64,000 nucleotides of DNA from Psychrobacillus sp. FSL K6-2836 (GTDB lineage: Bacteria > Bacillota > Bacilli > Bacillales_A > Planococcaceae). The stretch covers positions 1,736,001 through 1,800,000 of the forward strand of contig NZ_JBBOOM010000001.1 of assembly GCF_038003085.1 (NCBI RefSeq), given 5' to 3'. The stretch's first letter is position 1. Each line of letters opens with the position of its first letter. This document shows positions 5,658 to 25,712 of this stretch, in pieces. Made by a program: the position numbers and the translations under genes. Under the pieces are notes generated by a model. The model was not told where the DNA came from. It saw only the letters and a program-made list of their open reading frames with translations, and made no database searches.

Positions 5658-6596
5658 TCAATAATGATTTGATTCCTTACCAAGATACCTTCTCTGTACA
5701 AGTGAAATTATTAAAATAATAAAGAATAAGACATATGACAGCACAGCTGCATAACTTAAGTTAAGACTTGTAAATCCTTGAGAATATAAATAATACACAA
5801 TAGTAGTTGTTGCATAATTCGGTCCTCCGCCAGTTAACAAATACGCAGAATCGAAAATTTGAAATGAACCAATTGTAGTAGTTATCGCTACATAAAAATG
5901 AATTGGTTTTAATAATGGGAAAGTGACATTCCAAAAAATCTTAATTGGTGATGCTCCGTCAATTCTCGCAGCCTCATATAATTGTCGATCAATGGATTGT
6001 AAGCCAGCAAAATAGTAAATCATTGTACTACCAGCTACTTTAAATACACTTAAGCCCGCTAATACAGCAAGAGCTTGGCTAGAATCAGAGAGAAATAGTT
6101 GTGGTTCAATACCAACAAATCCAATAATGTAGTTAATCATACCTTCTTCTGAACCTCTAAATAACCAACCCCAAATACCTGCAATGATTACAAATGAAGT
6201 GACGACTGGAAGGAAAAATACTCCTTTAAAAAATTTAGCACCCCTTACTCCTGAGTTAATAATAAGGGCCAGTATTAAGCCTAATGCCATGGTTGGAATT
6301 ATATAATAGAGAGAAAATTTTACCGTGTTCCATATAGCCTTCCACGCCAAAGTGTCACTAAATAAATATTTCCAATGTTTTAAACCTACAAATTCTGCAT
6401 CCCCTATTACTTTCCAATCCATAAAAGTAAGATAGAAACTCAATAAAAATGGATATACTTGAAAAATAACAAAATGGATTAAAATAGGTATTAATACAAT
6501 ATAAACAATCGCATTTTTCTTCCACTCCTTTTTCATCCTTACGAGAAGCGGCAACTTTTCTTTTTTAGAAGTCAGTGTATTACTCAGTGTAATCAC
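5658..6596 (-). CDS. Carbohydrate ABC transporter permease (MalF/UgpA type)
   Basis: The 312-aa protein has a charged N-terminus followed by about six membrane segments (first near residues 30-52). Its EAA loop is YEAARIDGASPIKIFWNVTFPLLKP (about residues 207-231). GGGPNYAT near residue 256 is typical of MalF-type CUT1 subunits. The called start is a GTG at 6596 very close to AGGAAAGG; a CTG three codons in would have better spacing, so the true start is uncertain by a few residues. It lies 27 bp upstream of the partner permease and 67 bp downstream of the binding protein gene. Confidence 0.9.
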   Translation of the reverse strand: MITLSNTLTSKKEKLPLLVRMKKEWKKNAIVYIVLIPILIHFVIFQVYPFLLSFYLTFMDWKVIGDAEFVGLKHWKYLFSDTLAWKAIWNTVKFSLYYIIPTMALGLILALIINSGVRGAKFFKGVFFLPVVTSFVIIAGIWGWLFRGSEEGMINYIIGFVGIEPQLFLSDSSQALAVLAGLSVFKVAGSTMIYYFAGLQSIDRQLYEAARIDGASPIKIFWNVTFPLLKPIHFYVAITTTIGSFQIFDSAYLLTGGGPNYATTTIVYYLYSQGFTSLNLSYAAVLSYVLFFIILIISLVQRRYLGKESNHY

Positions 6597-6663
6597 CCTT
6601 TCCTATGTAAGTTAATAAGAGAGAGCTTGATCTCACCTAGATCAACCTCTCTATTAACTGTTA

Positions 6664-7923
6664 TTAATTTACTTTGGCTTTTATAGCCTCCGCCGCAGCA
6701 TCTGCTGCTTCTTTAGGAGTTTTTTTCCCTTCCATCATCGTTTGCAACTCTGCTTGGATTAAAGGCATAATTGTACGACCTTCTGGATGAATAACTCCTG
6801 GCAACGCATATTCTGTATACGTTGCAAGCTGTGCCATATACTCTTGATCTCCAAAAATATCTTTTGCAGATTCTCTAGTAGGAATATACTGTGTCACGGT
6901 ATTAAATTTTCGTTGGTTTTCTGCGTTTGTCATCACTTTTATAAATTCAGCTGCTGCCTCTGGATTATCCGTATTAATTGGAGCTACAAACATCCCAGTA
7001 GTTCCATAAGTAACTTGCTCCTTGTTTTTCAAAGGTGGAGCAATGACAAATTCAAACGCATCTTGACCTAACATACGGCTAACAGATATACCTGAACCTT
7101 GTACAGAAAGCATTTTTCCGCCATCCCACAATGCATTATGTTCCATAGCTGTAATTGAATCTTTTGGAGTCCACTCTTCTTGGTACATTTTGTTAATAAA
7201 CTCAAATGCTTCTACTCCAGCATCGTTGTTAATCAATACTTCATTGTCTGCTGTCAAAACATCCCCACCAGCTTGCCATAAGAATGGATATAATGTTCCA
7301 TTCATAGATCCACCGCCTTGGAAACTCGTAGCATAGTAACCTTTTTCTTTTGCTTTAACTGCCCATTCTTCAAACTCTTCCCAAGTTGCAGGGAGTTTTG
7401 CTGGATCTTCCCCAATCGCTTTTACAATATCCACATTATATAAGTAAGTATATGCTTCTTGAAGAATCGGAAGTCCATACACCTTATCTTTCCAAGTCGT
7501 TGAAACTAACGCTGAATCCACAAAATCATCCATTTCGTTATCTTCAAGATATGGATCTAATTCTAATAGCATTCCTGCATCTGCGTATTGTGGCATTTGG
7601 TCTGGAATAGCATAAAATACGTCTGGTCCATTATTAGCAGCAAGAGCGGTTAGAACCTTTTGATCTCTATTTGCCCAAGGAATTTGTTCAAAGTTAACCT
7701 TAACGCCTGTTTCTTCTTCATAAGAGGCAATTATTTCATCCCACATAACGCCTTCCGTTTCCTGATCACCCGTAAAAGGATGAGCCCATACCGTAATTTC
7801 ACCAGACAGTCCTTCCGCATCAGAATCCCCTGCCGATGTATTCCCATCTGTTCCTTCATCGCTACAAGCAGCCATTAAAGCACCAAATAACAATAGTAAT
7901 AGAACTAAACTAAATTTTTTCAT
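6664..7923 (-). CDS. Extracellular sugar-binding lipoprotein of ABC importer
   Basis: The start is the ATG at 7923 (419 aa), preceded by AGAGGGG with eight-base spacing; an upstream in-frame start would lack a ribosome site. The N-terminus MKKFSLVLLLLLFGALMAAC is a lipoprotein signal peptide with the lipobox LMAAC at residues 16-20 and a Ser/Gly/Asp-rich linker. The mature part has the SBP_bac_1 pattern: EITVWAHPFTGD, a VKVNFEQIPWANRD strand, NNGPDVFYA, and WLWQAGG-like FLWQAGGDVL. It is anchored outside the membrane, captures a sugar and delivers it to the two permeases. The C-terminal KTPKEAADAAAEAIKAKV is typical of the family. The ligand is unknown. Confidence 0.93.
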   Translation of the reverse strand: MKKFSLVLLLLLFGALMAACSDEGTDGNTSAGDSDAEGLSGEITVWAHPFTGDQETEGVMWDEIIASYEEETGVKVNFEQIPWANRDQKVLTALAANNGPDVFYAIPDQMPQYADAGMLLELDPYLEDNEMDDFVDSALVSTTWKDKVYGLPILQEAYTYLYNVDIVKAIGEDPAKLPATWEEFEEWAVKAKEKGYYATSFQGGGSMNGTLYPFLWQAGGDVLTADNEVLINNDAGVEAFEFINKMYQEEWTPKDSITAMEHNALWDGGKMLSVQGSGISVSRMLGQDAFEFVIAPPLKNKEQVTYGTTGMFVAPINTDNPEAAAEFIKVMTNAENQRKFNTVTQYIPTRESAKDIFGDQEYMAQLATYTEYALPGVIHPEGRTIMPLIQAELQTMMEGKKTPKEAADAAAEAIKAKVN

Positions 7924-9498: not shown

Positions 9499-9987
9499 AT
9501 GGACGAACGAAAGAAAAAAGCAATTCAATCTTTCTTTGAAGAAGGTCAATCCCAACGTTCAATTGCCCGCGAGTTGGGTCTTGATCGAACGGTCATTTGT
9601 GGTTGGATTGAAGTCTATCGCTATCACGGATTGGAGGGGCTGATGGCTCCTGCTTGTTTAACGTATGATAAAACCTTTAAACTAAGGGTAATACAACACA
9701 TGATAGAGACGGTCGAACCATTTTCAGTTGTGGCAGGGCGCTTTCGAATCCCTAGTCGGGCAACGATTTGGAAATGGATGCATCAATACATGTCTACAGA
9801 AGATTGGGCGCTCTATCAATTAAAAAGGGAGCGTCGGGATATGAAAAAAAAGCAGCCAAATCGTGTGATAACAGATCTTGAAAAACTACAAGAAGAGAAT
9901 GAATTATTGCGTGCAGAGAACGCTTATTTAAAAAAGTTACAAGCCTTAGTTCAGGAAAAACAACAGATAAAACCAAAGAAAAAGTAA
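9499..9987 (+). CDS. IS3-family transposase OrfA (DNA-binding subunit)
   Basis: This 162-aa protein has two HTH segments: QSQRSIARELGLDRTVICGW near residues 18-37, and a second around residues 77-92 (VVAGRFRIPSRATIWKWM). A leucine-zipper-like coiled coil follows (LEKLQEENELLRAENAYLKK, about 130-149). It binds the IS ends and oligomerises. The ATG is preceded by GGGAGGTG. It stops at TAA 9985-9987 immediately after the AAA AAG codons, where the ribosome can slip into orfB. Confidence 0.95.
   Translation: MDERKKKAIQSFFEEGQSQRSIARELGLDRTVICGWIEVYRYHGLEGLMAPACLTYDKTFKLRVIQHMIETVEPFSVVAGRFRIPSRATIWKWMHQYMSTEDWALYQLKRERRDMKKKQPNRVITDLEKLQEENELLRAENAYLKKLQALVQEKQQIKPKKK
9978..9984 (+). promoter_or_regulatory. 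Probable programmed -1 frameshift site between orfA and orfB
   Basis: The heptamer G AAA AAG ends directly at the orfA stop. A -1 slip continues from the GTA at 9984 into the orfB frame with no stop, joining the coiled-coil end of OrfA to the OrfB catalytic part. Frameshifting on A-rich heptamers is the normal way IS3 elements make OrfAB. Confidence 0.7.
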
Positions 9988-10019
9988 GAGCTGTTTATGA
10001 GCTAAGGCATGAATTTTCA

Positions 10020-10838
10020 TTGAAAATTTTATGGACTGTCTCCAAACTGAACAAAAGTACTTATTACTATCATGTTCATACTTTTGAAAAAGTAGATAAG
10101 TATGAAGAAGTAAAAGAGGCGATTCAACGCATTTTTCACCAGCATAAAGGGTTGTATGGCTATCGTCGTATTACGTTAATATTACGTCGAGAGGGCTTTC
10201 CAATTAACCACAAAACGGTTTATCGTCTGATGCAAGAACTAAATTTAAAGGGCTTCCAAAAAGCAAAAAAATATCGTTCCTATAAAGGCGATGTCGGGCT
10301 TGTGGCAGAGAATGAAGTGAATCGCCAATTTGAAGCAAAGGCCCCAAACACCCTTTGGTTGACGGATGTCACCGAGTTCAAAGTACAAGGGGTAAAGCTC
10401 TATCTATCCGCCTTTTTAGATGTGTTTAATCGGGAGATTGTCGGGTACTCCGTTACACAAAACCCGAATTTCCATTTAGTTCAAGACTCGTTTGAAAAAG
10501 CTGTGAGTCAGGCAAAACTATCGCCAACTAGTCAGGCTATCATTCACTCTGATCAAGGCTGGCTCTATCAAATCCCGCGCTTTAAGAAACTGGTGGGACA
10601 ATATGAGATGAAACAAAGTATGTCGCGAAAAGGAAACTGCTTGGATAATGCACTAATGGAAGGTTTCTTCGGCATCTTAAAAAATGAATGTATTTATCGC
10701 GAAACGTTTGATTCGGTAAAAGACGCCGTTCAAAAAATAGAGGCTTTTATTCAGTACTATAATCACCATCGAATTAAACAAAAACTCAATGGCATGAGTC
10801 CCACTGAGTTTCGTTTAGCTTATGAAAAAGCAGCATAA
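10020..10838 (+). CDS. IS3-family transposase OrfB (DDE integrase domain)
   Basis: The frame is open from 9984. A TTG at 10020 is the first possible separate start (272 aa), but the protein is probably made mainly as an OrfAB fusion by -1 frameshifting. Residues 30-90 are an HTH_21 region (HKGLYGYRRITLILRREG). The rve core follows with its three acidic residues: D in WLTDVTEF (about 116), D in IHSDQGW (about 179), and E in DNALMEGFFGILKNE (about 215). All catalytic residues are present and the length is normal. The AAGCAGCATAA end lies about 30 bp from the right IS end. Confidence 0.94.
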   Translation: MKILWTVSKLNKSTYYYHVHTFEKVDKYEEVKEAIQRIFHQHKGLYGYRRITLILRREGFPINHKTVYRLMQELNLKGFQKAKKYRSYKGDVGLVAENEVNRQFEAKAPNTLWLTDVTEFKVQGVKLYLSAFLDVFNREIVGYSVTQNPNFHLVQDSFEKAVSQAKLSPTSQAIIHSDQGWLYQIPRFKKLVGQYEMKQSMSRKGNCLDNALMEGFFGILKNECIYRETFDSVKDAVQKIEAFIQYYNHHRIKQKLNGMSPTEFRLAYEKAA

Positions 10839-13032: not shown

Positions 13033-13059
13033 TGAAACTTATTACGTCGTTTCCTCGTA
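13033..13059 (+). promoter_or_regulatory. ECF sigma (sigma-W type) promoter of the Ter stress operon
   Basis: TGAAAC at 13033-13038 and CGTA at 13056-13059 are spaced by 17 bp, matching the cell-envelope-stress sigma-W consensus. The first ATG is 34 bp downstream. The B. subtilis homologue operon yceCDEFGH is controlled by ECF sigma factors and sigma-B (established), which supports the reading. Confidence 0.82.
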
Positions 13060-13092
13060 TATATGGTATGACTAAAATTTGGAGGTACAAGA

Positions 13093-13710
13093 ATGGGCAT
13101 TAATTTAGTTAAAGGTCAAAAAATTGATTTAACAAAGGGTAGATCTTCCCTATCTAGTGTTATGGTAGGACTAGGATGGGACCCTGTGGAAAAGAAAAAA
13201 AGCGGCGGGCTTTTTGGTGGACTATTAGGCGGAGGTAGTGGTGGCGGAGCAGCTGTTGATTGCGACGCATCTGTACTTCTTTTAGATGAAAAAGGCAAAT
13301 TAGTGTCTAAGCAACATGTTATTTATTTCGGAAATAAAACAAGTCAAGATGGTAGTGTTGTCCACTCTGGAGATAATTTGACTGGAGATGGCGATGGAGA
13401 CGACGAAGTGATCAACGTGAATCTAAGTGCTATTTCGCCATCTGTACATAGATTGGTGTTTGTAGTAAACATTTATCAAGCAAAACAAAGAAAACAAGAC
13501 TTCGGACTAATTCAAAATGCATTTATCCGTTTAGTGGATAATGGTACAAAAGAAGAATTAGTTCATTATAATTTAAGTGAAAGCTATGCCGGTAAAACAT
13601 CTCTTATTCCTGGAGAGCTATACCGTAACGGATCAGATTGGAAGTTCTCAGCAGTTGGAGAAGGCACATTAGATTTAGATATTGGCTCAATAGCAAACAA
13701 ATACTTATAA
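13093..13710 (+). CDS. TerD family protein (YceC-like), with glycine-rich insert
   Basis: The 205-aa protein starts [16 protein letters not shown], the TerD signature. The calcium-binding segment [13 protein letters not shown] is intact (about residues 97-109). Between the first strand and the acidic strand, residues 35-53 are an unusual KKKSGG...[11 protein letters not shown] stretch that replaces the [14 protein letters not shown] seen in the next paralogue. That makes it the divergent YceC-type member. TerD proteins are Ca2+-binding cytoplasmic/membrane-associated components of tellurium and stress resistance. GGAGGT lies seven bases before the ATG; this is the first gene behind the sigma-W-type promoter and 13 bp before the second terD. 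Confidence 0.93.
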
Positions 13711-13723
13711 GGAGTGGTTAAAA

Positions 13724-14299
13724 ATGGGCATTAACTTATCAAAAGGACAAAAGGTAGATTTAACAAAAACAAACCCTGGTTTAGTAAACGTAACTGTAGG
13801 TCTAGGCTGGGATACAAACAAATATGACGGAGGAAAGGACTTCGACTTAGACTCATCTGTGTTTCTTTTAGGTAGTAACAGTAAATGTTCTTCAGAAGGT
13901 GACTTCGTATTCTATAACAACACTACTGGTGGTAACGGCTCTGTTGTTCATACAGGAGATAATCGTACGGGTGATGGAGACGGAGATGACGAGTCAGTAA
14001 ACGTGAATCTATCTACTGTTCCTTCATCTATTGAAAAAATTGCTTTTTGTATCACAATTCATGATGCGGAAGACAGAGGTCAAAACTTTGGTCAAGTAAG
14101 CAATTCATATGTACGTATTTTAAATGCAGATACACAAGAAGAATTGATTCGCTATGATCTTGGTGAAGATTTCTCCATTGAAACTGCAGTCGTTGTTGGT
14201 GAACTATATCGCCATAATAACGAATGGAAATTCAATGCAATCGGAAGTGGATACCAAGGCGGTCTTGGAGCATTAGTTTCAGACTTCGGCTTGAATTAA
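13724..14299 (+). CDS. TerD family stress protein (YceD/YceE-like)
   Basis: A canonical 191-aa TerD protein: [53 protein letters not shown] and [19 protein letters not shown]. All acidic calcium ligands of the family are present. It binds Ca2+ and is thought to work with TerC at the membrane. GGAG precedes the ATG. It is about 80% like the third terD copy at 21535 by eye, much closer than to the first, so the duplication that made these two was more recent. A terminator-like hairpin follows, before the biosynthetic genes. Confidence 0.95.
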
Positions 14300-14310
14300 T
14301 AACTTCTCTC

Positions 14311-14345
14311 AAAAAGCAAGGGGATGCTTCCTTGCTTTTTGTTTT
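14311..14345 (+). terminator. Internal terminator-like hairpin between terD2 and the biosynthetic genes
   Basis: AAAAAGCAAGG (14311-14321) pairs with CCTTGCTTTTT (14330-14340), followed by GTTTT. It would reduce read-through so that the two TerD proteins are made in excess of the enzymes downstream. Confidence 0.75.
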
Positions 14346-14416
14346 AGTATCTGAAGAACGTAGAGGTATTTGGGTATACCTAATAACTCCCTTCTTCATT
14401 CTTAGGAGTGGATAAT

Positions 14417-15547
14417 ATGAGACAATTTAGAGGGGTTAGTGAGAAAGAGATACGTGAATTCTTTCATATACCACCTAGCGACTTTTCCAAAAACTTGGAA
14501 AGAAAAAAATTAGGGATGGCTATGGGAGCGGCTTTATACTTACCAGGTTCAATGCCCAATTTCTCCGTTAAATTAAATAACAAGAATTTAAAAAATCTAA
14601 CGAGCACAATTATTTGTTTAGAAGATGCTGTTTCCGATTCAGAACTTTTAGAAGCAGAACTAAACGTTGTAAATGAATTCAAATTTATCGAACAAAATGA
14701 TCAAAACGGCTTAATAGATACCAATGAAATCCCTCTTCTATTTGTCCGAATTAGAAACGTTCAACAATTAGAAAAGATCGCTACCTTATTAGGAAGTGCA
14801 ATTCGATATATTTCTGGTTTCGTTTTTCCAAAGTGTACCTCTTATAATGCAAAAAACTTTTTTTTATGTTTACAAAACCTAAACCTTCAGCACTCTATTC
14901 ACTTATATGCATTACCCATTTTGGAAACGAAAGAAATTATTTATACAGAAACTAGAGAGCAAGAACTTTCCAACCTATATACAGTTTTCAAACAGTTTGA
15001 AGACCTAGTACTCACTATACGAGTTGGCGCTACGGATTTCACCAGCCTCTTCAGTCAAAGACGTCCTGGTAATAGAACAATCTACGACTTACTGCTAATC
15101 ACCAACTGTTTAACTGATATATTAAACAAATTCAATCGTAAAGAGGATAACTTTGTTGTTTCCGGTCCTGTTTACGAGTATTTTGAATCTCAAGATTCTT
15201 TTCGTCTATTCACGGACGCAAATAGTATAGAATCTATTCTATGGAATGAGGTTCAGCTAGACGTTTTAAATGGCTTCTACGGGAAAACCTGTATTCACCC
15301 TTCTCAAATCGATATTGTTAATAGTGTATACGTAGTGCCCAAAGAGTTATTTGAAGATGCTTGTGTAATCGTAGAAAATAACGCTGAAACAAATGGAGTT
15401 TTGCGAAGTCCAGCTCGAAACAAAATGAATGAGGTAAAACCTCACTACAGCTGGGCTATGAAGATTATTGCTCAAGCAGAAATATATGGGGTGTTAAAAG
15501 AAAATGTTACATCACTCGACTTCCTTCAATACATCAAAAACCTATAA
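14417..15547 (+). CDS. HpcH/HpaI-type C-C bond lyase of the Ter biosynthetic module
   Basis: I choose the ATG at 14417 (376 aa), eight bases after AGGAG; an in-frame GTG at 14408 overlaps that ribosome site. The protein is a TIM-barrel of the citrate-lyase beta/HpcH type. It has LYLPGSMPNF near residue 38, the acidic ICLEDAVSDSE near residue 69, LFVRIRNVQQ near 111 and a GKTCIHPSQ motif near 294. In the comparative-genomic description of Ter systems (Anantharaman, Iyer and Aravind) this family (C-C_Bond_Lyase) is one enzyme of a pathway predicted to make a nucleoside-like metabolite. Its substrate is unknown. It overlaps the next gene by 44 bp. Confidence 0.87.
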   Translation: MRQFRGVSEKEIREFFHIPPSDFSKNLERKKLGMAMGAALYLPGSMPNFSVKLNNKNLKNLTSTIICLEDAVSDSELLEAELNVVNEFKFIEQNDQNGLIDTNEIPLLFVRIRNVQQLEKIATLLGSAIRYISGFVFPKCTSYNAKNFFLCLQNLNLQHSIHLYALPILETKEIIYTETREQELSNLYTVFKQFEDLVLTIRVGATDFTSLFSQRRPGNRTIYDLLLITNCLTDILNKFNRKEDNFVVSGPVYEYFESQDSFRLFTDANSIESILWNEVQLDVLNGFYGKTCIHPSQIDIVNSVYVVPKELFEDACVIVENNAETNGVLRSPARNKMNEVKPHYSWAMKIIAQAEIYGVLKENVTSLDFLQYIKNL

Positions 15548-16865
15548 TTTACATGGAGATTTAAAGCTAGAAATCGACATTAAAGACAATCCGTATAATT
15601 TCTCTCCGGAAGCACTTTTCCAGATGGCCGTGAGAATTAATAAAAAACGCCAATTTTTATTCGTCAGCCGACTTTTAGGCAAGCATTTAGCAGTAGACCC
15701 TGCAATTTCACTTGGAACAGGTACTATTTTAGCTTCAATGCTTATGGAGAATGAGAGCTTAGATAGTCATCCATTAGTAAATGAACTCGTTCAAATGATC
15801 AATTCTGGAATTCCCAATCGAAAACTTAGTCTGGACTCTTTAGCCTTCAAGTCTAACCTACCAACTAAGACCGTATTCATCGGTTTTGCTGAAACGGCAA
15901 CCGGTCTTGGCCATGCAGTGTTTCATCACTTTCAAAACGCACATTACATTCATACAACAAGAGAAGAAATCCTACATATGGAACCTTCCTTTTATTTTGA
16001 AGAAGAGCATTCACACGCAACCTCTCACAGAGTCTATGCTCCTGAACAAACATTAACGGATGCGAACACAATTGTGTTAATAGATGATGAAATAACGACT
16101 GGTCTTACACTGTCCAATTTAATCGTTGCTTTAAATAATTCTTTTCCTGGCAAACGATATAAAATTCTATCTATATTGGACTGGAGGACCGAAGCACATC
16201 AACATGATTTTAAGCAACTGATGAACACACACAATATTTCCGCAGAAATTATTACCATTATGGGTGGACAATTTACTCTATTAAACCAAGCATCAATCGA
16301 AGAAAAAGAAACTCCCTTATTAAGTAGAATGCAACCATTTGATGTGTTTGCTGACGAACAATTATCCCTAGAAATTACATCTAAGCATCGAAGTGAACAT
16401 GCTGCATATTGCCACTTCACAGGTAGATTCGGTTTAACAAGCAAACTTCACGAAGAAATGGACGTTTGGATAGAAAGGTTTATCACTAGGCTTCCTAAGC
16501 TGGATAGAGATAAACCCACTTTAATAATAGGCATTGGAGAAAACATCTATTTCCCGCTTAGATTAGCACTTTCCTTTGGTAATGACACAAAAGTCCAAAC
16601 TACCACAAGAAGCCCTATCTTAGCAAAAACAGATAAATCATATCCTATACAGCATAAATGTAAATTTGAGCTGCCGGATTCCAATGGAATTAACCAATAT
16701 TTATACAACCTCTCGGAAATAGATGCCGAACAAATCATCGTTATTTCTGAGTCAGTTCAAGATCGTGCTACTTGGTTCCCACTTCTTTCTTATTTAGAGA
16801 CGTTAGCACCAGTTTCATGGGTGTCTCTTACTCTACCAGATAGAGGTGAAAAAAATGAGCATTAA
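15504..16865 (+). CDS. Phosphoribosyltransferase with C-terminal TRSP-type domain (Ter module)
   Basis: A 453-aa protein whose first 250 residues form a type-I PRTase. The PRPP motif IVLIDDEITTGLTLS is near residues 190-204, and FIGFAETATGLGHAVFHHF near 125 is the family-specific loop. Residues about 290-450 match the TRSP-type domain that accompanies this PRTase (YCHFTGRFGL, LIIGIGENIYFPLRLA). It is predicted to join a base-like acceptor to PRPP in the Ter-linked nucleoside-like pathway. The start ATG at 15504 lies inside the preceding gene, with GGGGTG about ten bases upstream; translation coupling is likely. The acceptor is unknown. Confidence 0.85.
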   Translation: MLHHSTSFNTSKTYNLHGDLKLEIDIKDNPYNFSPEALFQMAVRINKKRQFLFVSRLLGKHLAVDPAISLGTGTILASMLMENESLDSHPLVNELVQMINSGIPNRKLSLDSLAFKSNLPTKTVFIGFAETATGLGHAVFHHFQNAHYIHTTREEILHMEPSFYFEEEHSHATSHRVYAPEQTLTDANTIVLIDDEITTGLTLSNLIVALNNSFPGKRYKILSILDWRTEAHQHDFKQLMNTHNISAEIITIMGGQFTLLNQASIEEKETPLLSRMQPFDVFADEQLSLEITSKHRSEHAAYCHFTGRFGLTSKLHEEMDVWIERFITRLPKLDRDKPTLIIGIGENIYFPLRLALSFGNDTKVQTTTRSPILAKTDKSYPIQHKCKFELPDSNGINQYLYNLSEIDAEQIIVISESVQDRATWFPLLSYLETLAPVSWVSLTLPDRGEKNEH

Positions 16866-17970
16866 TACATCGGGATTGGTTAAATCTAGCTACCCTTCGG
16901 AAGATATCACTTTTTTACTTAAGGATTTATCGGATGTTCAGATTGAGTCCTCTGTAGAGACTAGAGAACATCTATTTCAATCAGGTGGTCACTACTCCGA
17001 ATCTCTGCCAATTGAAAATCGACCAACGTCTGAATATACGGAGTTATATGAACAAGCTCTGGTTGACTCGGCAGATCATATAGCACAATTAGTTGGGGTA
17101 TTATGTAGAAGGGTTAGACGATTCTCAGATTCTGATGATGTCGTCCTGGTTTCTCTTGCACGAGCAGGAAGTCCAATTGGGATATTAATGAAACGATACG
17201 CGAAAAAATATCTGAAACTTAATTGGCCACACTTTAGTATATCTATACTAAGAGGAAAAGGAATCGACGAGAAGGCTGTTCGCACTATTAGAGAGCTGCA
17301 TCCAACAAGCCACCTTCAATTCGTTGATGGTTGGACAGGAAAAGGAGCTATACAAAACGAGCTTACTAAGTCCATTCAAAAGTTAAATGCAGCTTATGAG
17401 CTTAACTTAAATGATGACCTAGCCGTTTTAACCGATCCAGGCGAATGCGCCACATTATTTGCAACAAGAGAAGACTTTCTTATTCCAAACGCTTGCTTGA
17501 ACTCAACAGTGTCGGGATTAGTTAGTCGAACTGTACTAAATAATGACTTTCAAGATGCCGATGATTACCACGGGGCTAAGTATTACGCCAATCTTGAGGA
17601 AGTGGATGTATCCAACGAATTTATCGAAAATATATCCAGGAGATTTCAAGAGCAGGAGCCGGTTATAAAAAAACTTATAGAAAAGTTTCCAATCACAAAC
17701 GAACGAACTTGGAGAGGCATGCAGGAAGTGGAATCCATTGCCCGTAAGTTTTATAAAACTGCTGATATTAGTAAAGTAAAGCCAAGTGTTGGAGAAACGA
17801 CTAGAGTGCTATTAAGAAGAAAGCCTTTTAAAATATTACTTAGTGATGATAAACACCCATCCCTACGTCATATCCTTCTATTATGCAAAGAAAAAAATAT
17901 TCCTACCGAAATTGTGCCTGGGCTCTTTTACCTTGCCATCGGACTGATAGAATCGGAGGATCGATTATGA
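16855..17970 (+). CDS. Phosphoribosyltransferase with C-terminal PELOTA-like RNA-binding domain (Ter module)
   Basis: The preferred start is the ATG at 16855 (371 aa), eight bases after AGAGG. It overlaps the previous gene by 11 bp and the next by the four bases ATGA. The first 300 residues are the PRTase_1 family (VLVSLARAGSPIGILM near residue 97; ISILRGKGIDEKAVRTI near 130; VDGWTGKGAIQNEL near 156). The last 65 residues (KPFKILLSDDKHPSLRHILL, then IPTEIVPGLFYLAIGLIE) match the PELOTA_1 domain. This PRTase-PELOTA fusion is a hallmark of Ter biosynthetic modules. Whether it modifies RNA or makes a soluble nucleoside-like compound is not known. Confidence 0.86.
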   Translation: MSINTSGLVKSSYPSEDITFLLKDLSDVQIESSVETREHLFQSGGHYSESLPIENRPTSEYTELYEQALVDSADHIAQLVGVLCRRVRRFSDSDDVVLVSLARAGSPIGILMKRYAKKYLKLNWPHFSISILRGKGIDEKAVRTIRELHPTSHLQFVDGWTGKGAIQNELTKSIQKLNAAYELNLNDDLAVLTDPGECATLFATREDFLIPNACLNSTVSGLVSRTVLNNDFQDADDYHGAKYYANLEEVDVSNEFIENISRRFQEQEPVIKKLIEKFPITNERTWRGMQEVESIARKFYKTADISKVKPSVGETTRVLLRRKPFKILLSDDKHPSLRHILLLCKEKNIPTEIVPGLFYLAIGLIESEDRL

Positions 17971-18773
17971 CAATCCTATTTGCTAGTGATCTAGATCGAA
18001 CACTTATATATAGTAAAAATTCAAGAGGCAAGGAAGTTAGTGAACAGGATTTTGCAGCTGTAGAATGGATAAACGAAAAACCAACTGCATTTATGACCAA
18101 TAAAGGTCTTCAACTGTTTCAACATATCTCCCCCTCTATAACCTTTTTGCCAGTAACAACAAGAACAGCTGAGCAATACAATCGAATTACAGGGTTATTT
18201 CATATAGCAGAAAAACCCAAATATGCAATTGTATCAAACGGCGCAGTCATTTTGGAGGACGGCAAAGTACTTACAGAATGGTCAGATAAAGTGATCGCAC
18301 AGATGCAGCAGGATCGTACCTCTATAGAACATGTACTTCCTCAACTGGATGCATATACAAAAAACAAATTTGTCCTGAAAGTTATGCAAGCAGAATCATG
18401 GTTTGTATACTTAATCATTGATGAAGATGCATTTTCAGTCGAGGATTTTGAATATCTTTCTCAAATTTTTTATCAGCAAGGGTTCACTCTTTCCCACCAG
18501 GGGAGAAAAGTGTATATCATGCCTACCTGCATAAACAAATCGACTGCTCTTCAATTTGTTAAAGAGCGTGTTGCGGCAACTACAGTCATTGCCGCTGGGG
18601 ATTCCATGCTCGACTTCGATATGGTTTTAAATGCTAATCACGGCTTTATCCCTTCCCACGGCGAAGCGATTCATAAAGGCGGAAGTCTTCCCCCTCATGT
18701 CTCTATCACAAACCAAACTGGAGTATTAGCGGGAGAAGAAATATTAAAAAAGGTGAGCGATTATTTGTTATAA
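17967..18773 (+). CDS. HAD-superfamily phosphatase (Ter module)
   Basis: The start is the ATG at 17967 after CGGAGGA, overlapping the previous stop as ATGA; 268 aa. HAD motif I is FASDLDRTLIYS at residues 4-15. Motif II lies in FLPVTTRTAEQY, a lysine follows near residue 180, and motif IV is AAGDSMLDFDMV near residue 212. The cap resembles the Cof/sucrose-phosphate-phosphatase type. It is predicted to remove a phosphate from the product of the two PRTases. Cytoplasmic, co-translated with its neighbours. Confidence 0.9.
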   Translation: MTILFASDLDRTLIYSKNSRGKEVSEQDFAAVEWINEKPTAFMTNKGLQLFQHISPSITFLPVTTRTAEQYNRITGLFHIAEKPKYAIVSNGAVILEDGKVLTEWSDKVIAQMQQDRTSIEHVLPQLDAYTKNKFVLKVMQAESWFVYLIIDEDAFSVEDFEYLSQIFYQQGFTLSHQGRKVYIMPTCINKSTALQFVKERVAATTVIAAGDSMLDFDMVLNANHGFIPSHGEAIHKGGSLPPHVSITNQTGVLAGEEILKKVSDYLL

Positions 18774-18798
18774 TATGTATGAATAGGAGGGAAAGCCC

Positions 18799-20412
18799 AT
18801 GGTTAATTTAAATCCCATTAGGATGAAGTCGTGGGATTCATCTAATACAGGTATATGGTTGAAAGATTCTTTAGGAGACTCTTCGCAAGTAACAGTTGAC
18901 GGAGAGAACTTAACGTATCCTCAATTAGTTTGCCAGTATATTGGCATGTCCTTAGATGAAGATGAATATTTCTCGATTCTGCATACACAAGTCAATGATT
19001 CCTTAGGAAAGCTAAGCATCCTGACTGGTGCACTTAACAAAGAAATTTCTGCCGAGAAATTACGTGCCCTCAACCAACTCTTTGATTTGCATAGGAAAGA
19101 AAAAGGACTCTCTCCAAATCGGATGGTTGCCTTTCTTGATGGATATTCCTTACTGCCAAATATGAAAGATTTAGGTTTAAATAGACGAATTAGAACAGTC
19201 CTAATAGATTTACTAAAGAAGCTACAAAATAGCTACAAAGAAGGTACACTTCACCATGAATATCGTCGTATTACCACTGATCTTGTTAAGTGGATTTTCA
19301 ATCACGTAGAACCTGCACTAGAAAAAATAAATTTCGAACAAGGTCTTCCTGCATTTCTTTGGTACGGCAGTGCAACACCCAGCGAAAAATGGTTTCTAAC
19401 ATATCTAGCCGACATCGGACTCCATGTAGTTATTTTCAATCCAAGTGATGAACCATGGCCAAAAAGTCTACTGGCAATTACGGATGAGCTTAGTTTCCGT
19501 TTCCCAAAGGTATCCCAAGATATAAAACCATTGCCAGATGAGATGCCAAAAATTGCAGGGACTGTTGCATTTAAGGCAACCCAAGAAATTAACGAGCTTT
19601 TACACCATGAGGATTCAGGGCTTTACAAGCCATTTCAATTTAAATCTTATTCGATAAACTCTATCCGCTTGAAAACTACAGAGGATGAGGCATTCTTAAT
19701 TTCTAAAGAAAGAGCAATGATTCGTCCTCACTTCCAGGTTAGTAGCCAACAGGTAACAATTCCTGTAGTTTTCGCAAAACTGTTAGGTATAGACAAAAAC
19801 AGAAAGCGCTTCTGGAATAATGTCCATTCGTTAACAGAACGAGATGATACGCAGGTAATTCGCCAGTTCCCTTTCACAAAAGAACAAAAAACGAATCAGC
19901 TGTTTCATTATAGAGATGCTTTAAAAGCGGACGGAATGTTGGACCCAGAAAAAATGAAAGCTGCCAATTGGTGGACATATGATAAGCTTCCACTGGGGAC
20001 GCAAACTGTAATCGGTGAGACAATCGCCAAACATGTTAACGAACCGATACTCATTCGACAGTCCAACGAAACGATGGAAGATTTACAATTATACGCATTT
20101 GCACAATCTATGGTTTTACCTGATTTTGTTATACGGCTTTTACAAACATTCGATTATCCTCAATTTGTTCCAACTATATTTATTTATAACGAGGAGAAAG
20201 GTCCTGAACTATCAAGATCTGACGCCAACTCCTTATGTATGATGCATCATTTAGGATTAGATATCATTATAGTAAATCCTAAAGGCCATCTTGATATAGA
20301 AAAATGGGTACAAGAAGGCACTTTTGATATACACTGGATGGACGATCGAAGCTTCAATGACCCTTTTAAAGAACCTAGTGTAGTTCAGAAAATTTTCAAG
20401 AAATTTCTATAG
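18799..20412 (+). CDS. yceG: YceG-like component of the Ter biosynthetic module
   Basis: The protein has 537 aa, the same size class as B. subtilis YceG. It shows WDSSNTGIWLKDSL near residue 12 and FLWYGSATPSEKWFLTYLADIG near 190. FNPSDEPWPKSLLA and a C-terminal IIVNPKGHLDIEKW follow. YceG_bac proteins occur only with TerD/TelA genes and are listed as a putative component of the biosynthetic module; no activity is proven. GGAGGGAAAG precedes the ATG, with 25 bp from the HAD gene and 17 bp to telA. No membrane segment is seen. Confidence 0.85.
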   Translation: MVNLNPIRMKSWDSSNTGIWLKDSLGDSSQVTVDGENLTYPQLVCQYIGMSLDEDEYFSILHTQVNDSLGKLSILTGALNKEISAEKLRALNQLFDLHRKEKGLSPNRMVAFLDGYSLLPNMKDLGLNRRIRTVLIDLLKKLQNSYKEGTLHHEYRRITTDLVKWIFNHVEPALEKINFEQGLPAFLWYGSATPSEKWFLTYLADIGLHVVIFNPSDEPWPKSLLAITDELSFRFPKVSQDIKPLPDEMPKIAGTVAFKATQEINELLHHEDSGLYKPFQFKSYSINSIRLKTTEDEAFLISKERAMIRPHFQVSSQQVTIPVVFAKLLGIDKNRKRFWNNVHSLTERDDTQVIRQFPFTKEQKTNQLFHYRDALKADGMLDPEKMKAANWWTYDKLPLGTQTVIGETIAKHVNEPILIRQSNETMEDLQLYAFAQSMVLPDFVIRLLQTFDYPQFVPTIFIYNEEKGPELSRSDANSLCMMHHLGLDIIIVNPKGHLDIEKWVQEGTFDIHWMDDRSFNDPFKEPSVVQKIFKKFL

Positions 20413-20429
20413 AAATAGGGGGAGAAAAC

Positions 20430-21506
20430 ATGGAATTACAAAAGTTAGAAATCGAGCAGCAAGAACAAATGATGGAAGAAAGTAATGATTTAAAAGCACA
20501 GCTGAAACGTGATCCACAAGTATTGCAGTTAGTCGCAAAAATTGACCCCAAAAATCAGGTTGGGCTATTAGAATTTGGTCGTGAACCAGCAGATGAAATT
20601 TCCAAGTTTACAGGACAAATTTTAAGCACCATTAAGTCTAGTAGCATGGAAGAATCCAGCGAACTATTAAAACAACTAGGCAAGATTATGGATAAATTCG
20701 ATAAAAAAGACTTTGTTGCAAAGCCCTCTATCTTCGGTAAAATCTTTAAACAAGGTGAGAAATTAATCGAAAAGCTATTCAATAAATATCAAACAATGGG
20801 TGGCGAAATCGATAAGGTATTTGTTGAGATAACAAAGTACGAGACAGAAATGAAAAAATCTACTGTTACATTAGAGGATTTGTACGACAAAAACTTCAAC
20901 TACTTTATGGAATTAGAAAAGTATATTGTAGCTGGTGAGTTAAAGGTCAATCAGTTAAGACAACTCGTGCCTAACCTACAGCAAAAAGCTGAAAATGGTG
21001 ATCAATTAGTACTAATGGAACTAAACTCACTTCAAAATGCGATTGAGCTACTCGATCAACGTATTTATGATCTGGAAATGGCTAAACAGGTATCCTATCA
21101 ATCAGCACCACAAATTAGAATGCTGCAACGAGGTAATACAAAATTAATCGGTAAGATAAACTCAGCATTTGTAACAACTATCCCTATTTTTAAAACAGGA
21201 CTTATCAATGCAATATCCGCAAAAAGACAAAATCTTGTTGCACAATCTATGAGCGAGCTAGATCGTAGAACGAACGAGATGTTACTTCGTAATGCTAATG
21301 ATATATCGAAGCAAAGTGTGGATATCGCCAGAATGTCAGGTCAGCCTAGTATTAAAATCGAAACAATTGAGCAAACATGGGATACGATTATGCGTGGGAT
21401 GAACGAAACAAAAGCTATTGAAGAAGAAAATCGTAAAATGAGAGAACAAGGTCGTCTTCGTTTGGAAGAATTGCAAAAGAAATATGAGGATGGTCAAAGA
21501 AAGTAA
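20430..21506 (+). CDS. yceH: TelA/KlaA toxic-anion resistance protein (YceH-like)
   Basis: This 358-aa, almost wholly helical protein belongs to the TelA family (PF05816). Visible family blocks are VGLLEFGREPADEISKFTGQIL (residues 42-63), FVEITKYETEMKKSTVTLEDL (about 131), YIVAGELKVNQLRQLVPNL (about 165) and TTIPIFKTGLINAISAKRQ (about 250). TelA proteins confer tellurite and other toxic-anion resistance, and in Bacillus are tied to envelope stress and lantibiotic tolerance. The mechanism is unknown. GGGGGAG precedes the ATG. Coiled-coil propensity is high near both ends. Confidence 0.92.
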   Translation: MELQKLEIEQQEQMMEESNDLKAQLKRDPQVLQLVAKIDPKNQVGLLEFGREPADEISKFTGQILSTIKSSSMEESSELLKQLGKIMDKFDKKDFVAKPSIFGKIFKQGEKLIEKLFNKYQTMGGEIDKVFVEITKYETEMKKSTVTLEDLYDKNFNYFMELEKYIVAGELKVNQLRQLVPNLQQKAENGDQLVLMELNSLQNAIELLDQRIYDLEMAKQVSYQSAPQIRMLQRGNTKLIGKINSAFVTTIPIFKTGLINAISAKRQNLVAQSMSELDRRTNEMLLRNANDISKQSVDIARMSGQPSIKIETIEQTWDTIMRGMNETKAIEEENRKMREQGRLRLEELQKKYEDGQRK

Positions 21507-21534
21507 TTTTAAAAATGGATGAGGGGGAAACAAA

Positions 21535-22113
21535 ATGTCAGTTATTAACCTATCAAAAGGACAAAAGATTGATTTAACGAAAACGAATCCAGGATTAAAG
21601 AATGTCTTAGTTGGACTGGGCTGGGATACGAATAGATATAGCGGCGGAGAAGATTTCGATTTAGATGCTTCAGCTTTTATCGTAGATGGTAACGGAAAAG
21701 CCTTCAATGAAAAAAGCTTTATCTTTTATAATAACCTCCAAAGCGAGGAGGGTTCAGTTATCCACACTGGGGATAACCGTACTGGAGATGGTGACGGCGA
21801 TGACGAACAACTGCTCGTTAAGTTACCACTTGTTCCAAGCATTGTTCAAAAAGTTGTTTTTACTGTAACCATTCACGATGCAGACCAACGAAAACAAAAT
21901 TTCGGTCAAGTTTCAAACGCTTTTATACGAATAGTGAACGAAGATACAAATGAAGAAATTGTGCGATACGACTTAGGGGAAGACTTTTCAATAGAAACAG
22001 CACTTGTAGTAGGGGAAATTTATAGGCACAACAATGAATGGAAATTTAATGCAATTGGTAGTGGGTTCCAAGGCGGATTAGCATCACTAATTACTGAATT
22101 TGGATTGAGCTAA
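21535..22113 (+). CDS. TerD family stress protein, third copy
   Basis: A 192-aa canonical Ter[54 protein letters not shown], and the same C-terminal [20 protein letters not shown]. It is very close to the second copy. GAGGGGGAAAC lies before the ATG. It lies between telA and terC. In B. subtilis all three terD genes precede terC, so here one copy sits on the other side of the biosynthetic genes. Confidence 0.95.
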
Positions 22114-22145
22114 CCTGATTTTAACTGAGGGGAAATTGAAGATTA

Positions 22146-22901
22146 ATGGATATAATTAACGGTTTTATCGATACGTACGCAATGTTTTTTGATTGGGACA
22201 TGTGGGCCGAAGTTTTAACCGATCCAGTAAGTTGGGGGTTAATCGGTACGCTAGTTGTCTTAGAAGGACTTCTTTCAGCAGATAACGCGCTTGTTTTAGC
22301 TGTTATGGTAAAACACTTACCTGAAAAGCAACGTAAAAAGGCATTATTCTACGGATTACTAGGTGCTTACGTTTTTAGATTTATAGCAATTGGAATAGGT
22401 GTCTTCCTCATCAAACTTTGGTGGGTAAAAGTAATCGGTGCTCTTTATCTTGCATATTTGGCGATCAAATACTTCATGGATAAACGAGCTGGAACAGAGG
22501 AAGAAATCGTTGAAGGTGTAAATAAGACGGGATTACTTATTCGACTTTTCGGTACTTTCTGGGGTACAGTAGTGGCAGTTGAAATGATGGACATAGCATT
22601 CTCTGTTGATAGTGTATTGGCGGCTTTCGGCATTAGTGATCAAGTATGGGTATTATTGCTTGGTGGGATGCTTGGGGTTCTGATGATGCGTGGGATTGCA
22701 GGGATATTCATTAAACTAATTGACCGTATTCCTGAATTGGAAACTAGTGCGTACGTGTTAATATTAATCATTGCAGCGAAAATGATGTTAGGTGTATTTG
22801 GCATTCATATTAGCCATTATGTCTTCTTCACGATTCTGGTTGTTACGTTTGTAGCGACTTTCGTGATTCACTATATGCGTAAAAGCCAAACAGCAAAATA
22901 G
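22146..22901 (+). CDS. yceF: TerC family integral membrane protein (YceF-like)
   Basis: The 251-aa protein has seven to eight transmembrane segments. The two membrane-embedded acidic motifs of TerC are present: LEGLLSADNALVLAVM (about residues 38-53) and EMMDIAFSVDSVLAAFG (about 146-162). TerC proteins sit in the cytoplasmic membrane and take part in tellurite resistance and in metal (manganese) loading or efflux linked to exoenzyme folding. GAGGGGA precedes the ATG. It is the last gene of the stress operon, closed by the terminator at 22919. Confidence 0.94.
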   Translation: MDIINGFIDTYAMFFDWDMWAEVLTDPVSWGLIGTLVVLEGLLSADNALVLAVMVKHLPEKQRKKALFYGLLGAYVFRFIAIGIGVFLIKLWWVKVIGALYLAYLAIKYFMDKRAGTEEEIVEGVNKTGLLIRLFGTFWGTVVAVEMMDIAFSVDSVLAAFGISDQVWVLLLGGMLGVLMMRGIAGIFIKLIDRIPELETSAYVLILIIAAKMMLGVFGIHISHYVFFTILVVTFVATFVIHYMRKSQTAK

Positions 22902-22918
22902 TTTCTCCTAATTAGTGT

Positions 22919-22948
22919 CCGAGTGTGTAGCAACACTCGGGTTTTTTT
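22919..22948 (+). terminator. Terminator of the Ter stress operon
   Basis: An 8-bp stem CCGAGTGT / ACACTCGG (22919-22926 with 22933-22940), then GTTTTTTT. Confidence 0.9.
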
Positions 22949-24452: not shown

Positions 24453-25712
24453 TTACATTATTTTTTTGATATCCGTTAAGATTATCCCACTCTTCGGGAT
24501 ACTTGGCATACTAACCAAACTATAACTCAAGTCTTGCTCTGGAAGCTGATATATTAGGTGATTTACTAAAAACTTGAGCGATACTTCCATTATTTCAATG
24601 GTCACAAATTCCCCTGCACAACGGTGACCCATCATATAATCTCCCCCACCCTGCGGGATGAAATCGAATGGACTATTATTCCACCCAGAGAACCTATATG
24701 GATTAAATAGATCTGGGTTATCCCACAATTCCGCATCATGATTTGTTCCATACAAATCAAGTAGCGTCAACGTTCCTTTCTTAAATGAATAACCCTCCCA
24801 AGTAAAATCTTTTCTTACTTTAGCTGCAGCCATTGGAAAGAAAGGATAGAAACGCCGTACTTCTTGAACAAACATTTGGAAATACTTCGCATCTGCAGTC
24901 TCGAGTTTTTCTTTTTGCTCAGGATAATGATGAATTGCTAATGCAGTAAAATTAATATAAATAGCAATCGCTACAATAGGCCTTATAATATTTACCACTT
25001 CAACAGCAGCTATTTCTTCCTCTAACCACTTACCTTCCAAATCTTTGTGCAAAGAGATTTCACGTAACGCAGTACCTTCAGGTGGGGTCAGATTCCCTTC
25101 CCTAACCTGATTAACCAAGCCCCCTATCCAATGCTCAACCTGCTTACGTGCATGTCTTCCTTTCCAATGCTGGGGTCCAAGAGCGGTTGGAGATTCAAAC
25201 AAAGCTGCTAGCTGCTCCGCTCGTTCTTTTACTTCCTCTTCCTTAATCGGAACTCCTCCCCACTCACATGCAATTCTACACATGATTTCTTTTGTCTCAT
25301 CATACAAAATGATCTGCTCCATCTGCTCCCACTTCTTTGCAGCAAATTGCCATTGCGTTTTTGTAATTTCATGTAAAGCTTCTAGGCTATTCTTCGTCAT
25401 TAATGACATAAACATCGACTTACGGTGGCGATGTGCCTCATCATCTAATGTTTGTACACCTTCCTCACCAAACAATGTCTTTTGCAAACGTTTAGGCGCT
25501 ACTCCATTTCGCATGAATTTCTCTTCATCATAAAACAATTCTGCTGCTTTTTCTCCACTCATACATATTGCGCTTTGTCCTAATAAACGAGTTTCGAATA
25601 CGTTGGAGGCAAAGCTCTTCTTTCTATTCGGAATGTACATATAACCTTCTCTTAACAAACTCAGACTATGGTCTAACCCTTCTTCACGAGGAATACTTTT
25701 AGTCATGTTCAT
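24453..25712 (-). CDS. Cytochrome P450 of the CYP152 (fatty-acid peroxygenase) type
   Basis: The protein is 419 aa, or 417 if the ATG at 25706 is used; AAAGG precedes both. The heme thiolate motif is [11 protein letters not shown] near residue 360. The ETR-like motif [12 protein letters not shown] is near 285. The I-helix has the Arg-Pro pair in [10 protein letters not shown] near 240 instead of an acid-alcohol pair, which is diagnostic of H2O2-using CYP152 peroxygenases such as P450-BSbeta (YbdT). It hydroxylates or decarboxylates free fatty acids with peroxide, needing no reductase partner, and none is nearby. A sigma-B-like promoter lies at 25746-25770, so it is probably a stress-induced enzyme. 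Confidence 0.92.

Follow-up and report, generated by a model that had tools for sequence, protein, structure and literature searches.

Which compound, if any, do the enzymes encoded beside Ter genes produce, and how is their synthesis tied to the Ter proteins? Ter genes are widespread, and the product of the adjoining enzymes has been, as far as the open-access literature goes, a question since a prediction made in 2012. It is raised again by a Ter operon of Psychrobacillus sp. FSL K6-2836, which, with its promoter and end hairpin, spans positions 13033–22942 of the 64,000-nucleotide stretch of DNA analyzed here (contig NZ_JBBOOM010000001.1, positions 1,736,001 to 1,800,000; hereafter, the window). 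Ten genes of the + strand (13093–22901) follow one another in the order terD, terD, C-C lyase, PRTase_2-TRSP, StiP-PELOTA, HAD, yceG, telA, terD and terC. We give a probability of roughly one half to the reading that this is a Bacillota-type Ter stress operon with an optional cassette of four enzymes, which would make a nucleoside-like ligand.

The gene content was established by Pfam searches. A sequence-only reading of the same DNA had placed three terD genes, terC, telA and yceG around a four-enzyme core, and these identities held: the six families that it named (PF15617, PF15609, PF12500, PF11202, PF15608 and PF14266) were all found far above cut-off, as were TerD, TerC and TelA, which are encoded together as in Ter systems. 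Among named proteins, the best relatives are 94–96% identical, in line with a Psychrobacillus source. The four enzymes were all placed by domain search, the HAD protein through PF08282 and S6PP matches weaker than those of the other operon enzymes; they lie within one operon, and their gene order is kept in relatives.

Among 101 genomes (that of the window and 100 relatives), TerD, YceG and the enzymes were nearly all-or-none: a strong lyase match was found in 34, StiP in 35, PRTase_2 above cut-off in 35, YceG in 35 and TerD in 37. TerD was present in all 35 StiP genomes and YceG in 34 of them (G062 lacks it), including five in which yceG lay on another contig than the enzymes. An extra genome with YceG and TerD (G044) had partial matches only, and an extra TerD genome (G085) had a weak, interrupted match. 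A short lyase remnant with a stop was found in G048 (locus L045; G048:C1:3468357-3468437), where PRTase_2, StiP, HAD, YceG and three TerD genes are kept, making it a possible natural lyase-less variant. Presence varied inside at least seven genera (g1, g6, g9, g12, g13, g18 and g19), a distribution suggestive of several gain or loss events. Across 299 genomes sampled from the class, the link between YceG (25 genomes) and StiP (45 genomes) was looser than among the relatives, with both in 19, YceG only in 6 and StiP only in 26.

The sequence-only reading had proposed comparing metabolites with strains naturally lacking the module. Within the genus, this comparison is confounded: everything was present in 15 of the 19 genomes, and the four without StiP and PRTase_2 (G003, G010, G015 and G017) also lack TerD and YceG. 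Bacillus offers a cleaner contrast. In B. halotolerans (L071), the four enzyme genes stand between terC and yceG, whereas loci L140, L141 and L142 (genomes G210, G282 and G124) carry the terD×3-terC and yceG-telA blocks at 75–98% identity to L071 without the cassette, the aligned ends of terC and yceG lying only 72–81 bases apart. These three genomes belong to the genus of G073, which was taken as Bacillus from this identity and in which StiP occurs in 29 of 44 species; three of the 15 StiP-less species were inspected. Since species with and without the cassette share the same operon, the product can be searched for directly in laboratory strains.

Another feature bearing on the proposed reading lies at the entrance of the cassette, where the gap between terD 2 and the lyase gene contains a 14-pair hairpin followed by TTTTAGT and folds at −33.4 kcal/mol (z = −2.55; 3 of 200 shuffles were as good). 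In relatives, 38 of the 81 gaps immediately upstream of the lyase gene contained a terminator-like hairpin, compared with 1.1 in shuffles (52 of 97 by a looser count). Split by gap length, the counts upstream of the lyase and in the other gaps of these operons were 4/11 versus 1/75 for gaps of 35–60 bases, 16/30 versus 4/37 for 60–90 bases, 10/21 versus 0/16 for 90–130 bases and 8/19 versus 4/36 for 130–400 bases. A strict test, applied to the window and to 66 of the 80 named loci (67 in total), found a hairpin with a T-run in sense orientation at 31 loci and in reverse orientation at 6, covering 16 of 29 genus labels, and the stems differed in sequence from genus to genus. In the cassette-free Bacillus loci L140, L141 and L142, a similar hairpin was seen by eye between terC and yceG; the hairpin therefore appears to stand where the terD/terC block ends. 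This position fits both published extents of the B. subtilis operon, which is written as yceC to yceH in the available text of one paper (PMC3498285) and as yceCDE-meeF in another (PMC10550928).

The promoter element TGAAAC (13033–13038)-N17-CGTA (13056–13059) stands ahead of terD 1. The bare pattern (spacer 15–18) is weak evidence, giving 74 sites genome-wide versus 46 for the reversed control; it is conservation in the genus that makes the promoter convincing. Of the 15 Psychrobacillus loci compared (the window and L021–L034), 14, all but L022, carried the element 59–67 bases upstream of the first terD, with a gap of 16–17 bases between the boxes and a spacer that varied in sequence while both boxes were kept. 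Composition shuffles (1000) gave a mean of 0.01 and a maximum of 1, although the relatedness of the genus loci means that this comparison is not a probability. The same TGAAAC-N17-CGTA form lies at 2428578–2428604, just upstream of the sigW gene (G000:C1:2428645), whose product is the one match above cut-off (324.4 bits; cut-off 243.1) among the 33 matches of the SigW model in the genome. The element of the operon thus has the TGAAAC-N16/17-CGTA form of sigma-W-regulon promoters, and the extracytoplasmic function (ECF) promoter named by the sequence-only reading was recovered. In the four Bacillus-group loci inspected, the pattern was present in L140 and L142, and CGAAAC replaced TGAAAC in L141 and L071. 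The homologous operon of B. subtilis is listed under sigma-W, sigma-B and sigma-M control in the portion of PMC3498285 that was available.

Judged by sequence, the active sites of the lyase, PRTase_2 and HAD proteins are intact. In the lyase, residues E72, D73, R114, K142, E173, R205, D210 and H297, which we take to be catalytic and metal-site residues, were invariant among 112 rows; profile matches were obtained with malyl-coenzyme A (CoA) lyase (5ugr, 1.1e-6) and a human-type citrate lyase beta-like protein (5vxc, 1.3e-6), the scores against named lyase models being just 27–29 bits. The PRTase_2 protein has the phosphoribosyl pyrophosphate (PRPP) motif and the fold of type I phosphoribosyltransferases (PRTases), and the HAD protein retains the DxD nucleophile motif, the Lys and the GD..D of HAD-IIB enzymes, presumably in their catalytic roles. 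The StiP loops S-L-A-R-A-G-x-P-x-G and F-x-D-G-W-T-G-K-G were conserved at 97–100%, and they follow one another, we assume, as the pyrophosphate and PRPP loops do in type I PRTases. The PELOTA domain aligns with archaeal L7Ae (2.2e-5), and its segment GETTR, aligned to NETTK of L7Ae, was kept at 97–100%; this segment is presumably the RNA-contact motif of L7Ae-type RNA-binding domains. Neither this motif nor the internal hairpin was mentioned by the sequence-only reading. For YceG, no reliable fold match was obtained, and comparison of a predicted model did not establish a P-loop fold. Averaged across 14 loci of the genus, identity to the window was 94.5% for terD3, 94.4% for TelA, 91.6% for terD2 and 87.0% for terD1, followed by YceG (84.4%), StiP (78.8%), HAD (77.4%), PRTase (74.2%) and the lyase (73.3%), which indicates that the enzymes drift faster than the putative product-binding proteins, despite fixed active sites.

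Several variants of the enzymes were observed. PRTase_2-TRSP and StiP-PELOTA are fused in a single open frame of 808 residues in G053 (L049, 3724–6132), and an 846-residue frame surrounds StiP in G169. In five Streptomyces loci (L098, L104, L121, L127 and L131), the lyase, StiP and HAD were found, and PRTase_2-TRSP was not detected by profile. A near-invariant run, F-x-E-x-H-S-H-A, occupies residues 165–172 of the PRTase_2 protein (window 15504–16865); it presumably lies outside the usual PRTase motifs and may be an extra metal site. The yceG gene of G016 is broken into two overlapping frames (L033, 9026–10632).

Around the features read from these sequences (gene content, conserved promoter, recurrent hairpin, intact lyase, PRTase_2 and HAD active sites, L7Ae-type motif, co-inheritance and cassette presence or absence), the following scheme can be proposed, in which we infer the stress induction, the TerD excess, the reaction order, the product and the ligand role. 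Envelope stress would free an ECF sigma factor of the sigma-W type, and transcription would start from 13033–13059. The TerD proteins would be made in excess. The hairpin at 14310–14341 would let only part of the RNA polymerases into the cassette, and this partial readthrough would keep the enzymes few in comparison with the binding proteins. The C-C lyase would make or trim a small carbon skeleton, the PRTase would join the phosphoribosyl group of PRPP to the lyase product or to a base, StiP-PELOTA would carry out a second PRTase-like step, possibly controlled by a structured RNA, and the HAD enzyme would take off the phosphate. The resulting nucleoside-like compound would be a ligand or cofactor of a TerD-TelA-YceG-TerC assembly at the membrane.

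Several observations weigh against this scheme. TerD, YceG and TelA occur without the cassette in B. subtilis, and 6 of the 25 YceG genomes of the class sample lack StiP; the ligand is thus not essential to TerD, YceG and TelA everywhere. Conversely, 26 of the 45 StiP genomes of that sample lack YceG. Another ECF factor may read the promoter, given the 33 SigW-model matches of which one exceeded the cut-off. The strict hairpin test failed in 36 of 67 loci, so that the hairpin is recurrent and not universal; the other gaps of the same operons also exceeded shuffles (9/164 versus 0.95), so hairpins are not exclusive to the cassette entrance; and with 8 terminator-like sites in the window region versus 6.5 in shuffles, the hairpin at 14310–14341 taken by itself is not significant. 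Hairpins of this kind can act both as a terminator and as a 3′ stabilizer, and it is conceivable, if somewhat doubtful, that the hairpin at 14310–14341 is a stabilizer or processing site protecting an abundant terD messenger and not an attenuator. The stable fold of the gap agrees with such a role, whereas the strand bias of the T-run (31 forward versus 6 reverse) counts against it, because a terminator needs the T-run 3′ on the sense strand and a stabilizer does not.

The nature of StiP is also disputable. It was taken for a PRTase by the sequence-only reading, which the PRTase-like loops favor, whereas the hhalign comparison of StiP with PRTase_2 (probability 0.6%) was no better than that with the HAD and lyase profiles, which are unrelated (0.4% each). 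The Pfam name of PF11202 is cysteine protease, C201 and C217 were kept at 98% and 97%, and H129 and H242 were invariant among 97 rows; StiP could then be a protease, with StiP-PELOTA processing a protein or ribosome-bound substrate and the lyase, one PRTase and the phosphatase making the compound. We regard this as unlikely in view of the conserved loops in what we take to be type I order and of the fusion to PRTase_2 in G053. Still less probable is that StiP-PELOTA acts on RNA, the L7Ae-like domain binding a kink-turn-type RNA, the PRTase-like domain installing or exchanging a base or ribosyl group, and the lyase and PRTase_2 supplying an unusual base; if so, the record of stress would be an RNA modification in addition to a free nucleoside, at a level set by the attenuated enzyme expression. 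Also improbable is the idea that the Ter system, with a nucleotide signal, serves anti-phage or anti-toxin signaling and not the response to metal or envelope stress. This was proposed, according to the available text, in a survey of jumbo phages that reports a phage Ter system with PRTases and HAD (PMC7824862); loss of terC is described as giving larger plaques in Klebsiella in the accessible part of PMC12054061, and presence is patchy between close species. However, the promoter belongs to the envelope-stress type, 6 of the 14 genus loci have the same flanking genes ahead of the operon, and the sole match of a PADLOC search was a weak one of PRTase_III-A to PRTase_2 (8.2e-5). Under the preferred reading, a stress operon with a ligand-making cassette, the ratio of enzymes to binding proteins is predicted from the recurrent hairpin to be fixed; for StiP-PELOTA, the least understood enzyme, the RNA-contact motif offers a concrete role that can be tested.

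Table 1. Coordinates of the Ter operon features in the window.
Feature	Position	Strand	Evidence
ECF (sigma-W-type) promoter TGAAAC-N17-CGTA	13033..13059	+	sequence, genus conservation, sigW-like form
terD 1	13093..13710	+	PF02342 236.1 bits
terD 2	13724..14299	+	PF02342 279.2 bits
Intra-operon terminator-like hairpin, entrance of enzyme cassette	14310..14341	+	14 pairs, then TTTTAGT; recurs across loci
CitE/HpcH-like C-C lyase	14417..15547	+	PF15617 351.7 bits (cut-off 28.4); catalytic residues invariant
PRTase_2 + TRSP protein	15504..16865	+	PF15609 213.6 bits (cut-off 28.8), PF12500 98.7 (25); PRTase fold
StiP (PRTase-like loops) + PELOTA/L7Ae-type domain	16846..17970	+	PF11202 324.2 bits (28.7), PF15608 87.4 (25)
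HAD-IIB phosphatase	17967..18773	+	PF08282 30.3 bits (20.9), PF05116 (S6PP) 27.6 (20.3); catalytic residues
yceG, internally repeated	18799..20412	+	PF14266 248 bits (cut-off 25), two stretches
telA	20430..21506	+	PF05816 344.4 bits
terD 3	21535..22113	+	PF02342 280.4 bits
terC (YkoY/MeeY-type subfamily)	22146..22901	+	PF03741 180.6 bits, TIGR03716 263.9 bits
Operon-end terminator-like hairpin with T-run	22917..22942	+	sequence

The longest open reading frame (ORF) of the lyase starts at GTG 14408; ATG 14417 was preferred and gives 376 aa, equal to P0241. The HAD start is better set at 17967 (ATGA overlap with the StiP gene), and the PRTase_2-TRSP frame from 15504 overlaps the lyase stop, its true start being ambiguous. 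According to tblastn, terC follows the last terD in only two of the 14 genus relatives (L026 and L031). Upstream of the operon, two adjoining ORFs at 9499–10838 resemble an IS3-type transposase pair by eye, and the gene preceding the operon in the 6 of 14 genus loci noted above is an esterase, mostly with EamA. A cytochrome-P450-like ORF (by eye) lies at 24453–25712 on the − strand and is also near the operon in L023, L027, L031 and L032. Elsewhere in the genome, another TerD-type gene (L145, 4808–5971; G000:C1:2852807) encodes 387 aa with two TerD-like halves by eye and is followed by a repeat-rich ORF (6050–6736).

A C-C lyase was reportedly part of the module predicted by Anantharaman, Iyer and Aravind in 2012. 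The Ter systems with a biosynthetic module described there share TerD, TerC, TelA, PRTases and HAD with the window, as far as they are presented in the available text of PMC7824862 and PMC8115787, and a nucleoside-like product was predicted for them, as the sequence-only reading had it (via the accessible parts of PMC7824862, PMC8115787 and PMC12054061); no later identification of this product was found in a search of the open-access literature. The window differs from them in its Bacillota layout with YceG, and no TerA, TerB, vWA or ATP-grasp family was found among the ten operon proteins in the Pfam search, so that the operon, called complete by the sequence-only reading, is so for the Bacillota-type layout and not beyond it. 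The kind of system is therefore already known from the literature available to us, to which the present analysis adds the hairpin upstream of the enzyme genes, the RNA-contact motif of StiP-PELOTA and the comparison of Bacillus species that have the cassette with those that lack it. The window lyase has E, D, R, K and H residues in common with CitE/HpcH-type lyases (5ugr and 5vxc), but no CoA ligase is present among the ten proteins; similarly, the PELOTA domain resembles archaeal L7Ae but is fused to an enzyme. The yceCDEFGH operon of B. subtilis (yceF = meeF) shares TerD, YceG and TelA with the window, whereas it has no StiP, PRTase_2 or lyase, and the window has telA and terD after yceG, with terC last. 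In B. halotolerans L071, the same four enzymes occur in the same order, followed by YceG and TelA and preceded by a hairpin before the lyase, whereas the terD×3-terC block comes first and the lyase is 39% identical to that of the window.

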